The position numbers were made by a program, and so were the translations under genes. DNA of 33,714 nt from a virus: positions 1-33,714 of IMG/VR virus record IMGVR_UViG_3300048592_000073; one strand, 5' to 3'. The notes beneath the pieces were generated by a model. It saw only the letters and a list, made by a program, of their open reading frames with translations, made no database searches and had not been told where the DNA came from. Every line of letters starts with the position of its first letter. The stretch's first letter is position 1. Shown here one piece after another: positions 16,529 to 32,069 of this stretch.

Positions 16529-16721
16529 CATCTGTCTTTCTCTTCTGATGGTATGCTTCCATATGTGCCATCAGTTCATCACCATTCCACATCTGATAGA
16601 AGACTTCAATAGGCAGTGCGACATGATCACCCATCATATTGCTTTCAAAAGTAACCCAATCATCTTCTAAGTACATCTTATACTTATTGTCGATATTAAC
16701 AATTACTTCCTTCTTCATCAT
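16521..16721 (-). CDS. 66-aa unknown protein downstream of GIY-YIG gene
   Basis: A 66-aa protein whose start overlaps the stop of the GIY-YIG gene. It has a short beta N-terminus (KEVIVNIDNKYKMYLEDDW) and a His/Lys-rich helical end. No family is recognised. Confidence 0.65.
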   Translation of the reverse strand: MMKKEVIVNIDNKYKMYLEDDWVTFESNMMGDHVALPIEVFYQMWNGDELMAHMEAYHQKRKTDDA

Positions 16722-17179
16722 AGTTTCCTTATAAGTTTAAGCAACTCATCGTGCTCTGTCTTAGATGGAGAGTAGACATCATCTATTCTTTTGTTATACC
16801 AGTTTAATGGGTCAAGTAATATATCCTTCTTATGTTGGATGTTAGCTTCAAGGTACCTTAGAGAACCTTTAGAGTTAACCTGAGCAAGTATCTCAAACTT
16901 GAAGTTACCAATACCGATGTTCTTTATGTCTCTATTAACATCAGGACTAGAACCAGTATAAGTTCTCCAGTCTGATTCACTTACTCTCTTACCTTTACGT
17001 GTATTCCAATACTGCTTTCGTCCTAAGTACTTCCTTCCAGTGACTTTGTTAGTGATGAGATACAAGAATCCAAGGTACTTTTTAGGTTCTGGTACGACAC
17101 CTTCCCAAGGTACTCTGGGGGCGGATAGGTTCTGAGTATAGTCAGGAGTATCAGGTTCCTCTCGTATTGTATGGGGCAT
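16718..17179 (-). CDS. GIY-YIG family endonuclease (homing-type)
   Basis: A 153-aa protein. The catalytic domain begins near residue 35 with GFLYLITNKVTGRKYLGRK, the variant form of the GIY...YIG motif common in phages, followed by the conserved Arg in DWRTYTGSS (about 71) and the metal-binding Glu in RYLEANIQ (about 110). Such enzymes nick or cut DNA and often promote their own spread. The 5' 157 nt, including the first GIY-YIG strand, lie on top of the exonuclease 3' end in another frame. No DNA-binding extension is seen after the catalytic domain. The true start could be a little inside the given one. Confidence 0.78.
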   Translation of the reverse strand: MPHTIREEPDTPDYTQNLSAPRVPWEGVVPEPKKYLGFLYLITNKVTGRKYLGRKQYWNTRKGKRVSESDWRTYTGSSPDVNRDIKNIGIGNFKFEILAQVNSKGSLRYLEANIQHKKDILLDPLNWYNKRIDDVYSPSKTEHDELLKLIRKL

Positions 17180-17778
17180 GAATATAGATCCTTTATGTCG
17201 GCACCAGTAGCTAAGTACTTCTCTGCTTTCTTAGGACCCATACCACGTATACCGTGCACGTTGTCAGCTACATCCCCTGTTATCAACTGTACTTGCAGGA
17301 AGTGATCAGCTTGAGCTTGGGTTACCCAGTATAGGTTCTTCTTCGGGTAATTATAATGCCAACCGGGGATCTGGTCAAGGTCTTTATCGTTAGTTACGAT
17401 ACATGTATGCATATCTCTATAACGATCCAGAGCATAACACTGCATAATACCCATACCATCATCAGCCTCTATCCCATCTAGTACTACTGCATCATAGTCA
17501 GACACTAGATAATCATTCAACGCCTGTCTATGGGGTGGAGGATCTGTCTTGCGGTTACCTTTATACACTTCTCCATTGGACGTAGAAGACATCTGTCGCC
17601 TGTACTGCTTCGCTCCAGACAGGAAGAAGATACCATCTCTACACTTCAGACGATCTGCTATCTGCATAATAGTAGAATCAAGTGTCTTCTTGGCGAGATC
17701 TAGACGGAGACCCTTAGTCGCAGCCGCAGTACGGTACGTCAGCAGATCTCCGTCTAGTAGTAGTAACTTTATAGACAC
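17023..17778 (-). CDS. 5'-3' exonuclease of the FEN/PIN type (T7 gp6-like)
   Basis: A 251-aa protein with the acidic metal-binding sites of flap-type nucleases: LLLDGDLLTYR (about residue 5-15), DGIEADDGMG (about 100), VTNDKDLDQIPG (about 128) and a helix-3-turn-helix region, TGDVADNVHGIRGMGPKKAE (about 168-187). T7 gp6 of this type removes RNA primers and degrades host DNA. The last roughly 50 residues are encoded over the 5' part of the GIY-YIG gene and may not be original sequence. It starts shortly after the SSB gene; exonuclease, SSB and polymerase together form the replication core. Confidence 0.85.
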   Translation of the reverse strand: MSIKLLLLDGDLLTYRTAAATKGLRLDLAKKTLDSTIMQIADRLKCRDGIFFLSGAKQYRRQMSSTSNGEVYKGNRKTDPPPHRQALNDYLVSDYDAVVLDGIEADDGMGIMQCYALDRYRDMHTCIVTNDKDLDQIPGWHYNYPKKNLYWVTQAQADHFLQVQLITGDVADNVHGIRGMGPKKAEKYLATGADIKDLYSCPIQYERNLILLTILRTYPPPEYLGKVSYQNLKSTLDSCISSLTKSLEGST

Positions 17779-18416: not shown

Positions 18417-20429
18417 TCAATGAGTTTCTTTCCAAGTTTTCCCCACCTTATATTCACCAGTGATAGGACACTTACATTTGTAGTATCTCCCAGCTTGCTC
18501 TAGGGAGAGTACCTGTAGTCTACCAAGGGTATGTGCATCAGCTTCTGAGCCAACCTCAGTCTGCCATTCGTCATGATTCTGTGTGGATAAACTATATTTT
18601 ACACCCTTCTTATCTGCTTGTCCACACCAAATCTTCAAGGCTCGCTTCATCAAGGTAGCTTCACCCTCTTGTAGTAGCGAAGCGAGCCAGTCACCGTGCC
18701 AGTCAGAAGCACATGGTATCCACCTACCACTGATGCCACTGTAGATGTACCCCTTGCGTGCTTGCTTCTTCTGAGTGTTCATGAAGGACTCCAAGCCGGG
18801 AGTCTCTTTGATGAACTTCTTATATAGTCTACCAGTCTCATCTACTGGCTTGTTGATTGTACTAGCCAGCTTAGTGATACTAGCACCTAAGAGGAAAGAA
18901 TAGATACCTTTATGTTCAATAGGCTTCGCTACTAACCTACCGGTTCTCTTATGAACTCCTGCACATTACTATGCAGAGCAGACTATATCATCACCCTACT
19001 GGGTGTCTGGCGCTTCCACTCGCTTGAGTGTACTCTCTTTCGAGATAGTCGTTGCACCTTCTAAATAAACTTCTTAGAGTCAAGAGTATTTAGCTTGGCT
19101 CAGGATTGTCCTTTAGAAGGAGGTTCCCTGAGTTCACCAGATTTATAGACGTCCTGTATTAAACGTCTTAGCCTTAGGTCGATCACACCCTAAGATGTCT
19201 GCATTACGTTGGTGCACGTCTCCGTTGATTAGCTCGTCTGTCCACTCTTGACTGTCAAGGTAGTGAGCCGAGACTCGTAGTTGAATTCCTGAGGCGTCAC
19301 ACCCCAAGAGATACTTGTTATCTGGTGCCCCCCACAATAGTCTACACTCACTACCATAGGGGCTATCACTGGAGGGTACTTGAGTAATAGGAGGATCGCG
19401 GTGAGCCATTCGGTGAGTTCTGGTTCCAATAGATATGATTTGTCCATGCTGACGATGCGTGTTCTCATTGTAGAACTCCAACCATTTGTCTATCTGTTTA
19501 GTGATACGTGTATTAAGGATACGCCACTCTTGGTATGGCCTGTACTTCTCACCTACCTGATGGATAATATCATCTAAGAGTTCATCATCAAGCTTAGGTT
19601 CTCCAGTAGGAGTTAAAACTTTTGGCTTCCATCCGGCGTGCAGTAAGTGACGTTTGATGAACGCATCTCTGTTGAGGTTGACTTCTGGCCATTTGATCCA
19701 AGCAAATGGGGCTCCGTCAGTAAACCAATCTGTCGGACATCCTCCAAGATTTCTAGTACTAAGTTCTCCGTTTCTTTTAGTCGTCGGGGTCGTGAGTATA
19801 AGCTCTCCTTTAGAATACTTAGCTTCTGCAAGAGAAGGAAATAACTCTCTAAGCTGAAGCTCACACTCTTGTCGTTTATCATTCAGTTCACTCCTAAGAA
19901 CCTGACATTGTTCTATATCAAAGTAGAAACCGTTACGCTCTACCTCTTTCATCTTCCAATGGACGAAACACTCTAGTTCTACCTCCGTCCATGGTATCTG
20001 CTTCTCATTGATACTGTTCTTAAGTAGTCGGTATAGCTTAGCATTGATCTTGGTATCTTCAACACACCGATGGATCATAGCGTCTGATAACACAGACCAG
20101 TCTTCGTGTTCAGGCTTGGTAATCCCTAACCGTTCTCCCCATGCTCCCAAGCTATGACCACCATCACGGTTAGAGTGATCAATGCGAGACATGCAGAGAG
20201 TATCCACCCAGCTATTAATGGGAGGAATAATGCCAAGACAGTCCCTAAGAACCCACCAATCGAAACCAAGAATGTTATGCCCAACAATCTCTGGATGTGT
20301 CGTGGCATAGTTACGCATCTCCTCATACGTAGTTAGGATATCAACATGGTCAGTATCAAGATCACGCCCAACCATGACGTGTATCTTGGTGTACTCTAAA
20401 CCGTCTGTCTCTAAGTCAACTACCTTCAC
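18417..20429 (-). CDS. Family A DNA polymerase (T7-type), interrupted by a group I intron
   Basis: The gene is split: exon 1 is 20429-19162, exon 2 is 18906-18417, and they join in frame to about 585 residues. Exon 1 has the 3'-5' exonuclease motif VVDLETDG at the N-terminus, GHNILGFDWW, and the polymerase motif A LLGCDASGIQLR. Splicing restores motif B as AKTFIYSFLLGAS, aligning with T7 AKTFIYGFLYGAG. Exon 2 has motif C NHDEWQTEV and ends like T7 polymerase. Unspliced, exon 1 stops at 19143, two codons inside the intron-derived frame after motif B. The GTG at 20429 (MKVVDLETDG, Shine-Dalgarno AAGGAG) is preferred over a GTG at 20468, which would overlap the upstream gene by 38 nt. Confidence 0.9.
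18907..19161 (-). ncRNA. Self-splicing group I intron in DNA polymerase gene, no ORF
   Basis: The 255-nt intron is defined on the minus strand. The exon 1 end AGACGTT pairs perfectly with internal guide GACGTCT across an 8-nt loop (P1), with the required U-G pair at the 5' splice site, and the intron ends in G. A conserved P4/P5-type segment (GGACAATCCTGAGCCAAGC) follows, then GGTGCAACGACTAT. GACTAT (19050-19045) and ATAGTC (18986-18981) form P7. CACCC/GGGTG gives a P8-like hairpin and CTGCA/TGCAG a P9-like hairpin. Removing these 255 nt restores the polymerase motif B exactly. No endonuclease is encoded inside, so mobility, if any, needs a protein made elsewhere. Confidence 0.92.
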
Positions 20430-20430
20430 A

Positions 20431-21015
20431 TCATTTAAACTCCTTGATACACTTAAGATGGTACTCACTTGAAGAAATATCCTTGAACTTATCAGGATAC
20501 TTATTGTCTATAAAGGTACACCAATTATCCCATAGTTGGTCTACTCCAATATGTCTACATATAGATAGATAATCTTTAATATTATATTTATTATCTTTAT
20601 TATATTTAATATCTAACTCTTTAAGTATATCTATTAAAGAGTATATAGTACTGAAGTTGTGAATGTCAAGACACCCTACCCTACCAAATGCTAACTGGAG
20701 GATGAAACCACCCTTAGCTACCCCTATCCCCGGTATCTCACATAGTATACCAAGGGCCTCTTCATCTGTCAACGATGGGAGTAGGGTATGGAGCTGAGAG
20801 GTAAGCTTAGGGTGACTCTTGAGCCACTCAAAGGTCTTGATCTTGTTACCCCACACGTAAGGGGAACGTAGCCCTACCTTGTTTACACTTGCAATCTGAT
20901 CATGCATAGCGTAGAATGGTTGTTGAATGGTGAGGGATACGAACTTAATGACACTATGGAAGTTGTCAGGGTTAAGGTGTGCTGCAATCTTAGGTTGAAC
21001 CGTCTTGTAAGTCAT
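20431..21015 (-). CDS. Helix-hairpin-helix DNA glycosylase-like protein
   Basis: A 194-aa helical protein. Around residue 100 it has a helix-hairpin-helix LCEIPGIGVAKGGFILQLAF followed by VGCLDIHN, placed like the HhH motif and catalytic Asp region of endonuclease III/AlkA-type base-excision enzymes. There is no iron-sulfur cluster Cys set. It may act on damaged or modified bases; the substrate is unknown. The start at 21015 is preferred because ATG overlaps the thyX stop (ATGA); the same frame extends to 21039. Codons for residues about 135-160 are unusually AT-rich (Lys/Asn/Tyr/Ile run). Confidence 0.6.
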   Translation of the reverse strand: MTYKTVQPKIAAHLNPDNFHSVIKFVSLTIQQPFYAMHDQIASVNKVGLRSPYVWGNKIKTFEWLKSHPKLTSQLHTLLPSLTDEEALGILCEIPGIGVAKGGFILQLAFGRVGCLDIHNFSTIYSLIDILKELDIKYNKDNKYNIKDYLSICRHIGVDQLWDNWCTFIDNKYPDKFKDISSSEYHLKCIKEFK

Positions 21016-22160
21016 AGATGTTCCATTAAGGCTTTCCAAGAGGTCGGGTATAGCTCTTCAAAGGTAGGCACAAACATCTTAGCGAAGTCTTGGATCTCTT
21101 TCTGTGCACTACCCTCAGTACGTAGCTTTATAAAGTGAGCCCAAGCCAACAGGGAACCAGTCCAATGCCATTCAACCATCTGCGATTGTGGCATCAACAT
21201 ACGCACCTGCTCAGGACATACTCCTTTATCAATCATATCTTTGTATAGGACCTTAAGATTATTGTAAAGTTCATCCACTGAATCTGATTGAGGAAGGATA
21301 TACCCACCATGTAATGCTAGTACCGACTTACAGAATTTTAACAAATCTTCATCAGAGGCATTGTGCTTCATGATGTTAGCTTTATTAGAAATAGTTTGTA
21401 TGTTCCCTTTAATATAGCCTTTAGTGTTATCAATACGATCTACACTAGGTGAATTATCTGTAATACTACTAGATTCATAGTCTAATGTTAACCCAAGATA
21501 GGCACAGCTTTCAGGCATTGGTATATCTTCTGGAGATAGGTCAATCTCTAATCCCCGTCTAGCTGCACTACCTTTTAACCGTTCAAGCTTAGAGACCCTC
21601 CAGCCTTGGTGTGTCTTACGGTATGCTTTTGACTGACAAGATGAGGAACAGTAAATCTGCCTGTTATTAACACTAGTGAATGTTACATTACAATTAGGAC
21701 ACTTACCTTCTTGTCCTTGGTAAGTTACAGTCTTGTCTGAACTTCCTTGTTTCTTATCTTCTGCTCTGCCCCTCCAAGATGTTGGCTTATAGAACTCAGG
21801 AGGAGAGTCAACATAACGACGAGATACTTCACTCCAACTCATACCTACCTGATGCTTACCCGCCTGTCTAGCTACGAAGAGGGGAGCCTTGCAGTGGAAA
21901 GAGATATGAGGATGTCTGAATGGGAGCCAGTGTCCTTCCCTAGCTAGGTAATTTATGAGCTTGGTATCTTTTTCTGATAGATATTTTTTACCGTAATACC
22001 TTCTAATTGGTGGGGCATTATATAGTCCCCTACCAAATTCATCTGTATCCATCTCTTCCCGGTAGTCTTGTACCCAATCAGACTGTTTATCAAAAGATAC
22101 CCTAGCTGCATTGACTACTCCCAAATCACTTGACATATGATCAAGATACGTGACTTCCAT
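21012..22160 (-). CDS. thyX: Flavin-dependent thymidylate synthase carrying an in-frame HNH insertion
   Basis: The 382-aa product is a complete ThyX with a foreign domain inside. N-terminal ThyX part (residues 1 to about 142): WLPFRHPHISFHCKAP and the signature KHQVGMSWSEVSRRY (variant of RHRxxSxNExSxRY), then DSPPEFYKP. C-terminal ThyX part (about 293-382): CPEQVRMLMPQ, HWTGSLLAWAHFIKLR and AQKEIQDFAK. Without the insertion it would be 231 aa, close to usual ThyX length. ThyX makes dTMP from dUMP using folate and FAD, and here complements RNR and deaminase. The start overlaps the 47-aa gene upstream by 20 nt; the stop overlaps the HhH gene (ATGA). Confidence 0.88.
   Translation of the reverse strand: MEVTYLDHMSSDLGVVNAARVSFDKQSDWVQDYREEMDTDEFGRGLYNAPPIRRYYGKKYLSEKDTKLINYLAREGHWLPFRHPHISFHCKAPLFVARQAGKHQVGMSWSEVSRRYVDSPPEFYKPTSWRGRAEDKKQGSSDKTVTYQGQEGKCPNCNVTFTSVNNRQIYCSSSCQSKAYRKTHQGWRVSKLERLKGSAARRGLEIDLSPEDIPMPESCAYLGLTLDYESSSITDNSPSVDRIDNTKGYIKGNIQTISNKANIMKHNASDEDLLKFCKSVLALHGGYILPQSDSVDELYNNLKVLYKDMIDKGVCPEQVRMLMPQSQMVEWHWTGSLLAWAHFIKLRTEGSAQKEIQDFAKMFVPTFEELYPTSWKALMEHL
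21283..21735 (-). mobile_element. HNH homing-endonuclease-like insertion inside thyX
   Basis: Exactly 453 nt (151 codons) interrupt the ThyX frame and are flanked by a 5-bp direct repeat TCAGA. Deleting them gives an uninterrupted KQGSSDSVDELY junction. The insert encodes a zinc-finger-like CPNC...CSSSC, a basic linker, then a CAYLGLTLDY segment and SVDRIDNTKGYIKGNIQ followed by NKANIMKHNAS, the pattern of phage HNH endonucleases. It lacks intein features (no N-terminal Cys/Ser block, no C-terminal His-Asn) and the ends do not fit a group I intron (exon U and intron-end G are not both available). Confidence 0.8.
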
Positions 22161-25317: not shown

Positions 25318-26088
25318 TTACTCTTCGTCGTACTCATACTCATCAAAGTCAAGCACACGACCAACCCACATCTTATCCTTAAGCCTGTCGGTGATATCAT
25401 TGAGGACAGTGTACTCACACACCCTCATCTTAGCGTTGTTGTAGTCTACTGGCACTGCTACAACATCAGCAGGGTTAATCGAGACAGCAACTACCCGGTC
25501 ACTGCCATTACGTACTACACCATAGTGGAACAGATACTCAAACCCACAGACATGTAGACCATGAGAGCAGGTACGGTTAGCGTCCTCGTCTACCATGTTA
25601 CGAGGGACTGACACTACCTGACCCGGACTGTTATCAAACTTACCAGAGAACAGATCCTTGTAGTCTGCCCGTACAATCTTGTAAGCTACGAAGTTACCAT
25701 CCTCAAGGATAGCATGGTTGTTCTTCTCAAGGAACCCATACAGTTCATTGACTGCACGATAGCTAGGGTTCTTTACTAGCTTATCGAGGAAGGCAATGAG
25801 GTGGGACACTCGGTCACCCCCAAGGATACGATCAATGAGGACACCAGATAGAGGTTCCCCATTATAGAGTACCTCAGAGTCAGTGACTACGATGCTAGTG
25901 CCAGCCACTGCTTTACGTACCTTAGTGATTGGCTGCATCAACTCAAGGATGTACTCAAGGGAGTCACCCATTTCGATAGACCCAATAGCCATGTCATAGT
26001 TAGGGTGTGACCTATCAATTGAGGTAGGTACGAACTCCCTATCGAAGACAGTAAGTACGTCACCGTTAATCGTGTAGTTGATTGACAT
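25318..26088 (-). CDS. rIIB: rIIB-like protein
   Basis: A 256-aa protein with the conserved rIIB C-terminal pattern: EDGNFVAYKIV (about residue 130), SGKFDNSPGQVVSVPRN, CSHGLHVCGFEYL (about 174) and SINPADVVAVPVDYNNAKMR (about 205-224). In T4, rIIB works with rIIA at the inner membrane, and loss of either makes the phage sensitive to lambda Rex, which depolarises the membrane. Here it is separated from rIIA by three small coupled genes. The start overlaps the preceding stop (TAATG). Confidence 0.85.
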   Translation of the reverse strand: MSINYTINGDVLTVFDREFVPTSIDRSHPNYDMAIGSIEMGDSLEYILELMQPITKVRKAVAGTSIVVTDSEVLYNGEPLSGVLIDRILGGDRVSHLIAFLDKLVKNPSYRAVNELYGFLEKNNHAILEDGNFVAYKIVRADYKDLFSGKFDNSPGQVVSVPRNMVDEDANRTCSHGLHVCGFEYLFHYGVVRNGSDRVVAVSINPADVVAVPVDYNNAKMRVCEYTVLNDITDRLKDKMWVGRVLDFDEYEYDEE

Positions 26089-26611: not shown

Positions 26612-26802
26612 TACTTGTTCTCCTCTAGGATTGTTGCTACCTTAACGAGATCTGCTGCTAACTTACGCAGATCATAAGAGGAAAACCACTGGCAATTAAT
26701 GCTCACTTCAAGAAAGCGTGAGCAGACCCTACTGACCCGCACACCACCGCCCAACTCTGGGTTACCTTCAATGATAGTATCAACTCTCTTAGTACTAATC
26801 AT
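26611..26802 (-). CDS. 63-aa unknown protein after rIIA
   Basis: ATG overlaps the rIIA stop (ATGA). The product has a basic beta-rich N-terminal half and a helical end (LRKLAADLVKVATILEE). No family is recognised. Confidence 0.65.
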   Translation of the reverse strand: MISTKRVDTIIEGNPELGGGVRVSRVCSRFLEVSINCQWFSSYDLRKLAADLVKVATILEENK

Positions 26803-28706
26803 AATCCAACCTCACTTTTAAAGTTTGACCAATTGATGTACCTATGGATAGGTACGTCTGTAGTTCCAGTGTAATCCTTTACTGTTAAGTTCTTGATGTA
26901 TTCTACCTTCTTCAAGAGTTCTTTATAGTAAGACTCAGCTTTAGGTTTACTCATGTTATCCTTGATGAAGGTGGGAAGGGTAGCCCAATCGTAGGCTCCA
27001 ACAAAGCCAGTCTTATAGTAGTCTAAGTCCTCTACATAATCCATCTCTTTCGGCATATCATTTGAATGAACCTTATTAAGGTAAGACTTGAAGTAGTCTA
27101 CCTTATCAGCACCTCCGTCAGCAATCCATAACTTCAATACCTCTGAGATGTGTGGTACCTTAGAAGCCTTGAGCTTAGTAAGGTTCTTATTAGTAGCTGA
27201 GATAACATAATATCCCCTATTAATCTTATGAGTAGTTATATAATCTTCATACTCTTTCTCTGTATCCCTGATATAATAGCAGGTATTGGTTAGATTATCA
27301 AGGTCTACCGTCGTTTCAGTAGAGTATTCAACATCTCGATATTTATTACCTCTGTAGTACACAACGAGGGCTTGGGTATCTTTGATACTCGGACCTGAGG
27401 TCTTAGTTCTCTTAGCCTTAGCCTTCTTCAATGGCTCATAGTCAGAGAGCTTAAGGTAAGGCACACCAAGGGTAGCCAACTCATCCTCTGCTTCCTTAAG
27501 TGTACCGACTGGGCTGATGTAGAGTAGATTACTCTCAGTTTCCCAGACCTTCTTGATACGAGAAGGTACAAACTTGTCGGTGTCAATTAAGAGATATTTA
27601 ACATTAGTACTATCCTTAGAAGTAAACAGCCTATTGTAGTGGTAATACTTTAACTCACTTACACTACCACTCCTATTAACTTTTATCTCTTTAAACTTAG
27701 AGTACTCTAAGTCAACATTAACTTTCATATATATTCTGACATTATAAGGAATACTATACAGGTACTTGCACTTCTCATAAGGTGTAGTCTTATTCTCTAA
27801 CTCTTCCCTATACTTCTTAATTACGTCTTCTACTGCTGAAGTTAGAAGAGGCTTGAGGTCAGCAGTTGTCTGTTCAGTGTACCTGATTGATTCTCTAGAT
27901 GCAGTGATATTAAGAGAACCGATAGGCCTGACAATTACTAGGTTAGACGAATCAAGAAGAGAACTAAGATTGTTATTTACCAGCTCTTGATGAGAACAAG
28001 AGTAGGGGATGCCACCCATGACTACTAAGAGTAGAGGACTAGCATACTGTGAAGAGTTAGTAAACCTATATAGATCTCCCTTCACTTGTTCAAAGACAAT
28101 AGTATTAGTAACTACCCCCTTAAAGTTAACCTTACTGAAGTAAGCGAGGAAGGTAGCGTAGTATTCGATCTCTCTTTTGAACTCAATATAATTCCTACAC
28201 TTAACTGGGATGCAAACCTTGACACCGCTAGACTCAGTTGAGTTAACCCTGCCCCTTAGTGAGATACTAAATGTACCATCGACATTCTTGGTACACTCAT
28301 ACACTGACTTGATGCCCTCAAACCAAGAGGTAACAGTGAATGAGTCAGTGTATGCAAAGCCAGACTTCGAACCAATACCAAAGCCACCAATCTGGTTGTT
28401 GTTCGTTGTCTTATTGCTGAACCCATATGAGGAGAACAACTCAAGTACAAACTCTTCACTCATACCCTTACCGTAGTCTCTCACTTCAAAGTAAGGGGTA
28501 AGTGAAGAAGGAACAGTTACATCTACCGTCTTACTTTCATCTACTGCGTTAGCTAGGTACTCCCTAACCACTGCCTTGATTGGGTTCTTGTATATGCCTG
28601 ATGAGAGGAGGTCAAACATCTCTGATGTAGGTTTGATACTCATCTGATTAGAGGAGATGACTGACCCGTGTTGAGATAGCGTGTGTTCTTTACGTAGTGG
28701 TATCAT
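26799..28706 (-). CDS. rIIA: rIIA-like GHKL-ATPase protein
   Basis: A 635-aa protein with an N-terminal GHKL ATP-binding domain: N-box REYLANAVDES (about residue 47-57), G1 box VRDYGKGMS (about 74) and G2 box GGFGIGSKSGFAY (about 105). A transducer-like region follows, then a long C-terminal part without known motif. This is the arrangement of T4 rIIA, which acts with rIIB at the membrane against host exclusion systems. AGGTG precedes the start. The gene lies directly downstream of the ExbB/ExbD-like membrane cassette, an association worth attention. Confidence 0.85.
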   Translation of the reverse strand: MIPLRKEHTLSQHGSVISSNQMSIKPTSEMFDLLSSGIYKNPIKAVVREYLANAVDESKTVDVTVPSSLTPYFEVRDYGKGMSEEFVLELFSSYGFSNKTTNNNQIGGFGIGSKSGFAYTDSFTVTSWFEGIKSVYECTKNVDGTFSISLRGRVNSTESSGVKVCIPVKCRNYIEFKREIEYYATFLAYFSKVNFKGVVTNTIVFEQVKGDLYRFTNSSQYASPLLLVVMGGIPYSCSHQELVNNNLSSLLDSSNLVIVRPIGSLNITASRESIRYTEQTTADLKPLLTSAVEDVIKKYREELENKTTPYEKCKYLYSIPYNVRIYMKVNVDLEYSKFKEIKVNRSGSVSELKYYHYNRLFTSKDSTNVKYLLIDTDKFVPSRIKKVWETESNLLYISPVGTLKEAEDELATLGVPYLKLSDYEPLKKAKAKRTKTSGPSIKDTQALVVYYRGNKYRDVEYSTETTVDLDNLTNTCYYIRDTEKEYEDYITTHKINRGYYVISATNKNLTKLKASKVPHISEVLKLWIADGGADKVDYFKSYLNKVHSNDMPKEMDYVEDLDYYKTGFVGAYDWATLPTFIKDNMSKPKAESYYKELLKKVEYIKNLTVKDYTGTTDVPIHRYINWSNFKSEVGL

Positions 28707-28713
28707 AATTCAC

Positions 28714-28977
28714 CTACATAAACAAAGTGAGGATGTATCCCAGACCTAGTGTAAGTACGGGGAATAGCCACATTATCCAAAACTTAACCCATGTCCACTC
28801 CTTAGATACATCTACATCCCCACCCCTAAACATACCTACAATAAAGAACATACCTATTGCAGCAGGTATACTGATAGGAGGTAGAGGCACAAACCAAAGC
28901 CACATCGTAGATAGGATGTAACCACGTAGTACTAGCACAGGTAGAATAGAAAGAACAGTTACAATTGCTAGCATCAT
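28714..28977 (-). CDS. Small polytopic membrane protein, paralogue B
   Basis: An 87-aa, strongly hydrophobic protein with about three membrane segments (roughly residues 2-30, 35-50 and 65-86). Its first 35 residues align with the 88-aa protein at 30241-30507: ML, VT, L, P, GY, S, W and W recur in register, followed by Pro-containing segments. The two are therefore likely duplicates. Start overlaps the preceding stop (ATGA). Role unknown; it closes the membrane cassette just before rIIA. Confidence 0.7.
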   Translation of the reverse strand: MMLAIVTVLSILPVLVLRGYILSTMWLWFVPLPPISIPAAIGMFFIVGMFRGGDVDVSKEWTWVKFWIMWLFPVLTLGLGYILTLFM

Positions 28978-29405
28978 ATCCCAAAGCTCCTAGCTTCTGG
29001 TTGTTCAGGCTTGGGTGGAGTACCGGGTTGTGGCATAGCGTGGAACACCCTGTCTTGATCATCGAGTGATGGATCAAAGTAGAAGGGTGTCCCCTCACCG
29101 ACCATAGCTTGTAACTCTTCAGCCTTCTCTTCATCCCAAGGTAAGACGCAGAACTTAGGCCCATCAATAAGTAGGTAGATGGCCTCTTCATACACTACAT
29201 GGGAGGTTAACACCTGACCTCTGACACACCACGTTGGGTACCCAAGTAGATTGATTGAAGCAAGGGTAAGGTACACTAGACCTACAGTCTTAGCCCTCCA
29301 ACCACCAATGATGAAGAATAGACCAATGAAGAAGAGTAAGGTTAGTTGGATAACTAAGTCACTTACCTGAATAGTCCCTAATAGGTCTGTTAAGCTCGTT
29401 GACAT
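28974..29405 (-). CDS. Membrane protein with Pro-rich C-terminal tail
   Basis: A 143-aa protein from ATG 29405 (MSTSLTDLLG); an ATG at 29420 is possible but has a poor ribosome-binding site. Two membrane segments (about residues 17-34 and 39-56) are followed by a soluble region with two Cys and a Pro-rich tail (MPQPGTPPKPEQPEA). The tail could be a protein-interaction segment. It overlaps the ExbD-like gene by 47 nt. No family is recognised. Confidence 0.65.
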   Translation of the reverse strand: MSTSLTDLLGTIQVSDLVIQLTLLFFIGLFFIIGGWRAKTVGLVYLTLASINLLGYPTWCVRGQVLTSHVVYEEAIYLLIDGPKFCVLPWDEEKAEELQAMVGEGTPFYFDPSLDDQDRVFHAMPQPGTPPKPEQPEARSFGI

Positions 29406-29916
29406 TGACGATAGCCCCATCCTTGAGTGTGAAGTTGAAGACAGTAACCTCCTGTCCGTGAAAGAATAGCTCTACAGTCCTAGAGAGCACATTCTTATTG
29501 AGGATAGACACAACCACAGACACAGGTAGTGGTGCCTTAGCATCACCTAGCCTGTAGAGATGGAGATTGACTGTGTACGTACCATCTACTAGGGCTTGTG
29601 ATCCTGCCTGCTCATGGTTAATAGGCGCCAAGGTGGTACGTCTACTGATCACATCCCTGATCAGGCTGAACTGTAGCCCTGTCTTGTTAGAGTACCCAAC
29701 TGCCCTATTGTCTAGCGGACCCAGCACCCAAAGGTCTACGTCAGCACCTCGATAAGGCTCAGCCCAGTAGATGTCTACGATTAGGAGGTCCCTAAGCGCT
29801 TCGTCTTGGTTCTCATTAGGGTCATTGATAAGCATCAACAAGTAGACGATGACAACTAAGAGAGCACTGAGGAGGAGGAAGAGTAAGTCTCTCCATACTA
29901 TTGAACTACCCCTCAT
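29359..29916 (-). CDS. ExbD/TolR-like single-span membrane protein with beta-sandwich domain
   Basis: A 185-aa protein from ATG 29916, which overlaps the stop of the ExbB-like gene and has GGAGGATTGGAG upstream. One N-terminal membrane helix with a preceding Asp (WRDLLFLLLSALLVVIV) recalls the ion-conducting Asp helix of ExbD/TolR/MotB. The rest (about residues 45-185) is beta-rich, with ADVDLWVLGP and VDGTYTVNLHLYR, like carbohydrate-binding or DUF2135-type sandwiches, and would lie in the periplasm. The pairing with an ExbB-like gene directly upstream supports a stator-type complex. The assignment is an inference from context and topology. Confidence 0.55.
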   Translation of the reverse strand: MRGSSIVWRDLLFLLLSALLVVIVYLLMLINDPNENQDEALRDLLIVDIYWAEPYRGADVDLWVLGPLDNRAVGYSNKTGLQFSLIRDVISRRTTLAPINHEQAGSQALVDGTYTVNLHLYRLGDAKAPLPVSVVVSILNKNVLSRTVELFFHGQEVTVFNFTLKDGAIVNVNELNRPIRDYSGK

Positions 29917-30241
29917 GACTCCAATCCTCCACGAACCAAAGGATACCACCAACGATAGTGGTTGTAACTGAGAGGCCAACACCTGAGAGGAAGTTGTTAA
30001 GTGCATCACCAATCATGGCTGCATCGTTGAGTGGTACTCCAGCCACACTGAGTAGTGCCAGTGCTAGGCCAATTACAGTACCCATCATACCTAGGAATGG
30101 CAGGTACTCATACCTCTCATGGTAGAGAGCCCAGAAGAGGATGATGAGGGTATTACCTACCACCACAGTCCAGTCAAGCCCAGCGTAGTAGGCAGCATAA
30201 GACAGGCCCATGATGAAGAGGGCAGCAATGAAGATACGCAT
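29906..30241 (-). CDS. Small MotA/TolQ/ExbB-like proton-channel protein
   Basis: A 111-aa protein from ATG 30241 (TAATG overlap with the preceding gene), with about four short or three longer membrane segments. The part PFLGMMGTVIGLALALL (about residues 50-65) followed by AMIGDALNNFLSGVGLSVTT (about 76-95) matches the conserved GLLGTVxG ... aLxxTaxGLxvA pattern of the MotA/TolQ/ExbB channel domain, reduced to its two channel helices. Cellular members use the proton gradient to drive work in the periplasm. It is followed at once by the ExbD/TolR-like gene. Confidence 0.68.
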   Translation of the reverse strand: MRIFIAALFIMGLSYAAYYAGLDWTVVVGNTLIILFWALYHERYEYLPFLGMMGTVIGLALALLSVAGVPLNDAAMIGDALNNFLSGVGLSVTTTIVGGILWFVEDWSHEG

Positions 30242-30507
30242 TAGCTTAGGATCCATCCAATAAGTAGAGCTATACCAGTGACGAGCCACCCACTAATCAG
30301 TCTCTCCCAAGAGCTAGGAGTATCATCATACCTCCACGTCATCCATTTTACTATCAGCACTATGATGATAGCTGTGGTGAGTGGTACTTCAGGCGTCTCA
30401 AAGACTGGCACGATATGCCAAGCCCAGAGGGCAGAGAAGGTATAGCCTACAAAGATCAGGTTAGGCACAATACAGAGTAGCGTGACAACCCCAAGCATAT
30501 CACCCAT
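30241..30507 (-). CDS. Small polytopic membrane protein, paralogue A
   Basis: An 88-aa protein from ATG 30507 (MGDMLGVVTLL); a TTG at 30516 is in frame but less likely. About three membrane segments with a Pro-containing VPVFETPEVPLTTA between the first and second. It resembles the protein at 28714-28977 in its first half, so the cassette is flanked by two copies. The start overlaps the preceding stop by 8 nt. Confidence 0.7.
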   Translation of the reverse strand: MGDMLGVVTLLCIVPNLIFVGYTFSALWAWHIVPVFETPEVPLTTAIIIVLIVKWMTWRYDDTPSSWERLISGWLVTGIALLIGWILS

Positions 30508-30685
30508 CCATCCCAAGCTGAATGCACTTAACCTTCATCTCGTATCCACCCCAGAGCACAGGCATCCTATCAAAGGAAGCCATACACTCTGCCTCAGTCC
30601 CATACTGAGTAGGTTCTTCATGGATGTACACAGTCTTTTCCTCACCTGTTGAGAGGGTAACAAGTACCAGCATCATGATCCACAT
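30500..30685 (-). CDS. 61-aa protein with hydrophobic N-terminus
   Basis: AAGGAG about 9 nt upstream supports ATG 30685. A short hydrophobic start (MWIMMLVLVTLSTG) precedes a soluble part with two Cys (EAECMASF and KVKCIQLG) that could form a disulfide. It may be exported or membrane-tethered, though there is no positive charge before the hydrophobic stretch. It is the first gene of the membrane cassette. Confidence 0.6.
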   Translation of the reverse strand: MWIMMLVLVTLSTGEEKTVYIHEEPTQYGTEAECMASFDRMPVLWGGYEMKVKCIQLGMDG

Positions 30686-30796: not shown

Positions 30797-31513
30797 TCAC
30801 CACTCCTCTGCCTCTTCTTTCGTCAAGAAGAAGTGAATACCACTGGTGCATTCAACCCTAATGTCAGCATCATAAGCGTCAGGGTATGTCAGCTTGCCGG
30901 GGATGTAGTGCGTCTTGTGGACACCCCTACTTACTACTGCTTCGCCTTCAATAACGAATACAAACTCAGCCCTGCACTTACGCCCAACGGGTGTTGCTGT
31001 TCGCCGAGCAGAAGGTGGCACACTCATTTTAACTAGGGTTCCATTCTTCTTTCCCCATACGATAAGTGATCCTTCTTGTGGGATCTGAAAGTGCGGAAGT
31101 ATAGCATCTTCAAGGTCTGCACCTTTGAGGTAAGCACCTATGAGGTCTGCATCTCTGAGGTTAGCACTTCTGAGGTTAGCACTTCTGAGGTCTGCATCTT
31201 TGAGGTCTGCACCTCTGAGGTCAGCACTTCTGAGGTCTGCATCTCTGAGGTCTGCACCTCTGAGGTCAGCACTGCTGAGGTTAGTACCTCTGAGGTCTGC
31301 ATCTTCAAAGTCTGCACTTCTGAGGTCTGCATCTTTGAGGTTAGCACCTCTGAGGTCAGCACTGCTGAGGTTAGCACCTATGAGGTCTGCACCTCTGAGG
31401 TCTGCACCTCTGAGGTCTGCATCTCTGAGGTTAGCACCTCTGAGGTTAGCACCTATGAGGTCTGCATCTTTGAGGTCTGCACCTCTGAGGTCAGCAAACG
31501 GTGTAATATTCAT
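30797..31513 (-). CDS. Pentapeptide-repeat protein with C-terminal DUF5758-like domain
   Basis: A 238-aa protein from ATG 31513 ([14 protein letters not shown]). Residues about 7-136 are 26 uninterrupted A(D/N)LxX pentapeptides, predicting a right-handed quadrilateral beta-helix of about 6.5 turns. Residues about 140-238 form a separate domain with [31 protein letters not shown] and [14 protein letters not shown], the pattern seen in phage proteins annotated DUF5758. Pentapeptide proteins of the Qnr/MfpA type mimic DNA and bind gyrase; that role is possible but not shown. Five bases separate it from the upstream gene. About 110 nt of non-coding sequence follow. Confidence 0.85.
31106..31495 (-). 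repeat. 26 tandem 15-bp units encoding pentapeptides
   Basis: The segment consists of 15-bp units that on the plus strand read near CCTCTGAGGTCTGCA, differing by a few bases each. Conservation at the DNA level, including silent sites, is high enough that slippage or recombination between units is likely. It produces long spurious open frames on both strands. Confidence 0.9.
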
Positions 31514-31517
31514 TGTC

Positions 31518-32069
31518 TTACGCTGCCTGCTTGTACTGTTCAACCAATGCCTGCACTGCACGGGTAAGTTCATGGACCCTATGCTTATCGGTAGGCTTGA
31601 TCTCTTTCTTGTCCTCAATCGAAGCAATCGCTTCAAGCCTCTTAATCAGGCTATCATAGCCAACGATAGCATCCGCGCTAGACTTGGAGGTGAGCTTGAA
31701 GTATGGCACCTCACTAGCCTCAGTGAAATGCCAGTCGTCATCAGTCAGGTTATCCCACTTCTTGGCAAGCTTCACACGATAGGTGAGCTTCTCCTTATCA
31801 AACAGCACCTTGATAGGAAAGTTAGTCTCAGTCCAAGCCTTCATCTGTTCGTGGTGAGACTTAACATCGTTGTCAAAGAGCCCCTGAAAGAGTGCCTGCA
31901 TGTACTTGTCAAGGCCAGCACCCTTGTTTTCCCAAGCATACTGGACAGAAGCACACAAGGCTACGTGGATAGAGTTACGTGCCTTTACACTGCCGTTGAT
32001 AGCAGACTTGACAGCACCACCCACCTTGGCAGCACTGATGTGGTTGGTGGTCGTCAGTTCGGTAGTCAT
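31518..32069 (-). CDS. 183-aa unknown early protein
   Basis: ATG 32069 has a strong GGAGGT Shine-Dalgarno about 8 nt upstream; an in-frame ATG at 32144 is rejected since it overlaps the 30-aa gene completely. The product is helical and Lys-rich, soluble, with [20 protein letters not shown] near the N-terminus and a [23 protein letters not shown] closing helix. No family is recognised. As an early gene it may act on the host or in replication. Confidence 0.75.

Follow-up and report, generated by a model that had tools for sequence, protein, structure and literature searches.

Why a phage should carry a tightly packed run of small membrane-protein genes next to its rIIA homologue is the question raised by this locus. 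Proton-driven motors built of five and two subunits (5:2) are known from flagella, the Ton and Tol systems, gliding and Zorya (PMC12905483). A sequence-only reading of the DNA had proposed a six-gene membrane cassette around an ExbB/ExbD-like pair, forming a miniature proton-driven stator. We analysed the 33.7-kb virus record IMGVR_UViG_3300048592_000073, called here the window (the whole stretch, 33,714 nt), together with related loci in phages and bacterial chromosomes. In the open-access literature we found no description of this module.

A coupled run of genes with a conserved core

The genes concerned are listed below. All lie on the minus strand.

30500..30685, minus strand: 61-aa ORF with a hydrophobic N-terminus and two Cys, an orphan with no relatives in the fetched loci
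30241..30507, minus strand: 88-aa polytopic protein, paralogue of the 87-aa protein; weak match to phrog_2169 'membrane protein' (E=0.011)
29906..30241, minus strand: A, 111-aa MotA/TolQ/ExbB-like channel subunit (Pfam and family profiles)
29359..29916, minus strand: B, 185-aa single-span subunit with Asp10 in its transmembrane helix (conserved Asp, AF2 model)
B residues 45-173, minus strand: predicted periplasmic TerD-like beta-sandwich (AF2 and VIA-align)
29644-29652, minus strand: altered residues 89-91 of B (alignment with 99 rows)
28974..29420, minus strand: C, 148-aa protein with two transmembrane helices, a small b-b-b-a-b-b domain and a Pro-rich tail; exact start uncertain (positional homologues, AF2)
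28714..28977, minus strand: 87-aa polytopic protein, paralogue of the 88-aa protein (pairwise comparison)
26799..28706, minus strand: rIIA homologue, 3' of the cassette (phrog_612, E=8e-85)
25318..26088, minus strand: rIIB homologue (phrog_609, E=2.3e-69)

The six ORFs are real and translationally coupled, and their places and lengths, as read off the window, are those of the sequence-only reading. Successive overlaps measure 8, 1, 11, about 62 and 4 nt. The 87-aa ORF is followed after just 7 nt by rIIA, with rIIB further on in the same direction, so the coupled run extends beyond the coordinates first given to it. The proposed paralogy of the 88- and 87-aa proteins was also borne out (31% over 89 columns, pairwise E=7e-8). 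For the 61-, 88- and 87-aa ORFs the other fetched loci yielded no relatives, and these three, seen in the window only, are lineage-specific. The surveyed neighbourhoods thus keep one part of the proposed cassette: the A-B-C order recurs, and the conserved module is three genes (111, 185 and 148 aa) instead of six. The rIIA and rIIB genes are linked to it in the window and lie outside the conserved module.

Subunit A

A belongs, as judged from its sequence family, to the MotA/TolQ/ExbB channel proteins. The window protein alone scores below the gathering score of Pfam MotA_ExbB (20.1 bits against 22.9, E=5.5e-4), so the assignment is decided by family-wide matches. All ten family members first scanned matched MotA_ExbB (best 3.3e-6), and chromosomal homologues passed the cutoff with 34.2 and 33.8 bits. 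With a profile of 52 members, 22 PDB sequences came up at E<0.1. Every one belongs to the MotA/TolQ/ExbB superfamily, either under the name MotA, PomA, TolQ, ExbB or ZorA or as an unnamed member. The best E-value was 6e-7, with MotA at 6e-6, ZorA at 1e-5, TolQ at 0.002 and ExbB at 0.011, and the MotA segment aligned to the profile (GMIGTLIGL ... ALITTLYGA) comprises the same helices. The pattern noticed in the 111-aa protein is therefore not a chance likeness, and the profile searches did find the relation on which the first proposal depended.

The helices carry the expected residues: a G-x-x-G-T/N pattern is present, Gly54 and Gly98 are invariant (52/52), position 55 is T or N in 52/52, and T95 in the last transmembrane helix is T in 50 of the 52 sequences and S in the other 2. 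The window A is the shortest of 54 A proteins. It has no cytoplasmic tail, and its TM2-TM3 loop is 9 aa long, compared with 24 to 74 aa in 51 relatives.

Subunit B

The AF2 model of B (pLDDT 90.4) has a helix at residues 4-30 followed by an all-beta domain of nine strands, in agreement with the Asp-bearing helix and beta-sandwich first described for the 185-aa protein. Among 99 aligned rows, which include phage and chromosomal copies, some of them near-identical, 93 have D in the membrane Asp column. In a separate scan an N-terminal Asp beside the transmembrane helix was seen in 98/99 B proteins; in the remaining one the start had been placed too late. Within the first 45 residues, this Asp and one Leu are the only positions conserved above 75% in 55 non-redundant phage rows.

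The ExbD likeness first proposed for B does not extend to its periplasmic domain. Neither an ExbD/TolR nor a MotB/OmpA match was obtained for B in Pfam at E<=1, and the predicted periplasmic domain resembles TerD in structure, being of neither the ExbD/TolR nor the OmpA type. VIA-align superimposed residues 43-184 of the model on TerD-like 3ibz with Z 10.2 (3.7 A, 135 aligned), where Z 7-8 is typical for unmatched models. The five highest Z values for this predicted model were 10.2, 9.5 (2qng), 8.9 (2qz7), 8.4 and 8.3 (2kxt), and three of the five entries are titled TerD or TerD-like. TerD did not appear in the Pfam scan of B at E<=1, and hhalign gave no link to the four TerD proteins of plasmid R478 (probability 0.4%), so any kinship of B with TerD is one of predicted fold only. 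Acidic motifs also come in a similar order in the two, as compared by eye. The TerD family is associated with tellurite and stress responses and binds calcium. TerD is cytosolic, whereas B is membrane-tethered and probably periplasmic.

Residues W51, D59, D61, D88 and E102 of B are invariant in the 99 rows, which suggests a candidate site. The RDDLG motif is altered in the window copy, with V89 and S91 where 98/99 have D and G. The domain of this particular B may thus be altered, lacking the near-invariant D89 and G91.

Protein C

C homologues lie 3' of B in nearly all loci, and this position makes C the conserved third component. Its AF2 model (pLDDT 85.4) has two transmembrane helices, as the sequence-only reading had expected of the two-span protein with a Pro-rich tail, and a small b-b-b-a-b-b domain. 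The loop between the helices is short and positively charged, which suggests that the C-terminus is periplasmic. A PDB fold search with C gave weak OB-like matches only (Z up to 5.9), and no TonB or TolA domain was found by Pfam.

Distribution and gene order

Neither A nor RIIA, used as a single query, gave a match in IMG/VR, and A likewise gave none in phage records. By tblastn, B found Rhizobium phages, including the temperate 16-3, and a B profile found 72 IMG/VR loci. In every one of the 81 loci that yielded both A and B, 16-3 among them, A precedes B on the same strand. The two genes usually overlap or adjoin, and some gaps between them hold small ORFs or homing endonucleases. Examples of homing endonuclease genes between module genes are L008:3120-3878 and L003:5421-5963. 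In three loci (L058, L059 and L060) the larger A profile misses diverged membrane proteins at the position of A.

When four B queries were run against 50,697 phage records, the window B matched 10 records and the three others 27 each. All 27 annotated records are from Rhizobium or Sinorhizobium phages. The module thus occurs in many rhizobial phages that are unrelated to one another, from the temperate 16-3 to phages with genomes of 154-171 kb; for Pootjesviridae (154-159 kb) profile searches confirmed all three proteins. In the annotated records that we opened, the three proteins are unnamed or 'hypothetical'.

That the module is specific to phages was considered and overturned by chromosomal copies in whole-genome searches. 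B matches occur in 40/289 Alphaproteobacteria and 20/398 Pseudomonadota genomes, some of them weak and some in prophages. Among Rhizobiaceae, B was seen in only 3/199 genomes, hence rhizobial phages bring the module to their hosts instead of mimicking a host copy. In the tree, phage and chromosomal copies are intermixed in two supported clades, with the window copy as a long, poorly placed branch. We take the phage module to be a branch of a system also present on alpha- and betaproteobacterial-type chromosomes. The chromosomal loci contain the same three genes in the same order; they differ from the phage loci in that a fourth exported lipoprotein is often present and the A proteins are longer. 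Examples of this lipoprotein-like gene are L107:7162-7857, L110:9358-10068 and L142:9172-9885; several share a motif around 'YFPL..G..W.Y', and one has a weak DUF3108-like match.

Neighbouring genes

The recognised phage neighbours of the module are mostly DNA-metabolism and homing-endonuclease genes, and a pooled PHROG scan of 102 neighbours found no other shared functional partner. Linkage to rII genes was seen in the window genome only; a search of the other loci gave none beside the module. A gene of the RHph_X2_25 lysozyme-gene cluster lies within about 10 genes of the module in 10/55 non-redundant loci.

An exported trypsin-like protease, sometimes of lipoprotein type, is linked to the module in 32 loci (L046:3843-4559 and 31 others, mostly from rhizobial temperate phages). 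Its gene is close upstream of A where checked, and the triad His and Ser are invariant in 12 aligned sequences. No such gene was seen in the window. The protease and membrane protein that neighbour the ter operon of R478 were considered as an equivalent protease-A pair and rejected, as their sequences are not those of A, B or C and gave no profile hit.

On chromosomes, copies lie beside PQQ alcohol dehydrogenases (L115, L116 and L124, and by reading L125 and L126) or beside PqqE (L129). Other copies lie beside a histidine kinase/response regulator pair or beside rodA/mrdA-, SfsA- (by reading) or Era-like genes. The PQQ-linked copies fall in one clade and therefore represent few independent events.

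Discussion

We propose that A, B and C form a proton-driven membrane motor that acts on the host envelope during infection. As a whole explanation we give this a probability of about one half. Its parts deserve different degrees of confidence: that A-B-C is a motor we hold to be very probable, while the role assigned to it in the phage, action on the host envelope, is a doubtful suggestion. The stator first proposed thus survives at the family level, in that the gene for a channel subunit immediately precedes that for an Asp-helix subunit, and loses its six-gene extent and its ExbD-type domain.

In this motor, five A subunits would surround two B helices. Protons passing Asp10 of B and the conserved Thr in the last helix of A would turn or crank B. 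The movement of B would in turn move or gate the periplasmic TerD-like domain, which probably binds metal, with C as an inner-membrane or periplasmic partner. The phage might use the motor early or in the middle of infection, for superinfection exclusion or for guarding the envelope, possibly together with RIIA and RIIB in the present genome.

With MotAB/PomAB, ExbBD and TolQR the module shares a channel subunit with the G-x-x-G-T helix and a Thr-bearing last helix, and a neighbouring single-span subunit with a membrane Asp. It differs from them in the much shorter phage A (111 aa, 9-aa TM2-TM3 loop) and in the head of B, a TerD-like beta-sandwich in place of an OmpA or ExbD/TolR domain. Ton and Tol are coupled to a third periplasmic partner, and here C is encoded by a third gene; however, no relation of C to TonB or TolA was detected. 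Matches to ZorA rank among the closest that the A family has in sequence, but A lacks the long ZorA tail, B has no ZorB match, and no Zorya-like partner gene was recognised beside A-B-C.

Several other explanations have to be weighed. The motor could steady the envelope or the membrane energy until RII-dependent events end, extending rII lysis inhibition. The coupled run stops just 7 nt short of rIIA, rIIB has the same orientation, and lysozyme-cluster genes lie near the module in about a fifth of the non-redundant loci (10/55). However, no rII genes were found near the module in the other loci searched and its recognised neighbours mostly serve DNA metabolism or are homing endonucleases, and we consider such a function in lysis timing unlikely. 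A little less likely still is periplasmic delivery of Ca2+ or a lanthanide, driven by the motor and with the TerD-like domain as the metal-binding part; the phage copy would then be an auxiliary metabolic module. The nearest fold to B is that of a calcium-binding family, W51 and four acidic residues (D59, D61, D88 and E102) are invariant, and chromosomal copies adjoin genes for PQQ alcohol dehydrogenases or PqqE. PQQ enzymes belong to a pathway that uses Ca2+ or Ln3+. Against metal delivery stand the chromosomal copies near rodA/mrdA-, SfsA- or Era-like genes, the hhalign comparison without a B-TerD link, the single clade of the PQQ cases and the loss of D89 in the window B. The PQQ-adjacent copies also count against our whole explanation, as they suggest an ancestral job related to metals or cofactors and not to infection.

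A and B could also be decoys that co-assemble with ZorAB, or with another 5:2 motor of the host, and poison it. Relatives of the window A do match ZorA models (16-3 p038, E=7.5e-9) and ZorA structures, but the window A does so weakly (E=0.09), and none of the four B proteins scanned with PADLOC matched ZorB. Besides, the force-generating Asp and Thr are conserved, and a poison would not need them. Since B is unlike ZorB and these residues are kept, the anti-Zorya role raised by the sequence-only reading is unsupported and unlikely; since rhizobia rarely have a homologue (3/199 Rhizobiaceae genomes), poisoning of a host copy is unlikely in them too. Altogether, we regard a decoy as very improbable. 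Finally, these could be ordinary small membrane proteins that look like ExbB/ExbD by composition, as short hydrophobic proteins match by chance and the window A alone stays below the Pfam gathering score. This is already contradicted for the A family by the matches of all ten members first scanned and by the chromosomal homologues above the cutoff, while the conserved A-B-C order and the conserved Asp of B speak against it as well, so that we give composition hardly any credence.

Returning to the motor, a broader proposal, to which we give slightly less than even odds, is that A-B-C represents an unrecognised three-component class of 5:2 motors with a TerD-type metal-binding head, common to phages and alpha/betaproteobacterial chromosomes, and that phages use it to remodel or guard the envelopes of hosts that lack the module. 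The 5:2 motor family would gain a member in a conserved branch that phages carry and that has a new periplasmic head. Such a member would suggest that phages draw on the proton motive force of the host for mechanical work on the envelope. The very small A subunit (111 aa) could serve as a model, and the chromosomal loci point to an uncharacterised cellular system in alphaproteobacteria.

Other features of the phage genome

Among the products of the phage are tail and internal virion proteins of podovirus-like type, a DNA polymerase of family A and a ribonucleotide reductase; its primase/helicase has about 29-30% identity to those of SIO1, Celeribacter and cyanophage relatives. The ThyX gene (21012-22160, minus strand) is interrupted in frame by about 150 aa that include a Cys-rich and HNH/endonuclease VII-like segment, and it matches ThyX on both sides of this insertion. 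The insertion may be an intein-like element or an endonuclease carried by an intron and read in frame. At 19143-21039 (minus strand) the DNA polymerase A ORF has only 441 aa and an unmatched 202-aa ORF lies beside it; the polymerase gene may be split or interrupted. At 16718-17179 and 17023-17778 (minus strand), an ORF resembling homing endonucleases runs over the end of an exonuclease ORF and looks as though it had been inserted into it. Just upstream of the cassette, a pentapeptide-repeat-like protein is encoded at 30797-31636 (minus strand), with long antisense ORFs across the repeats.
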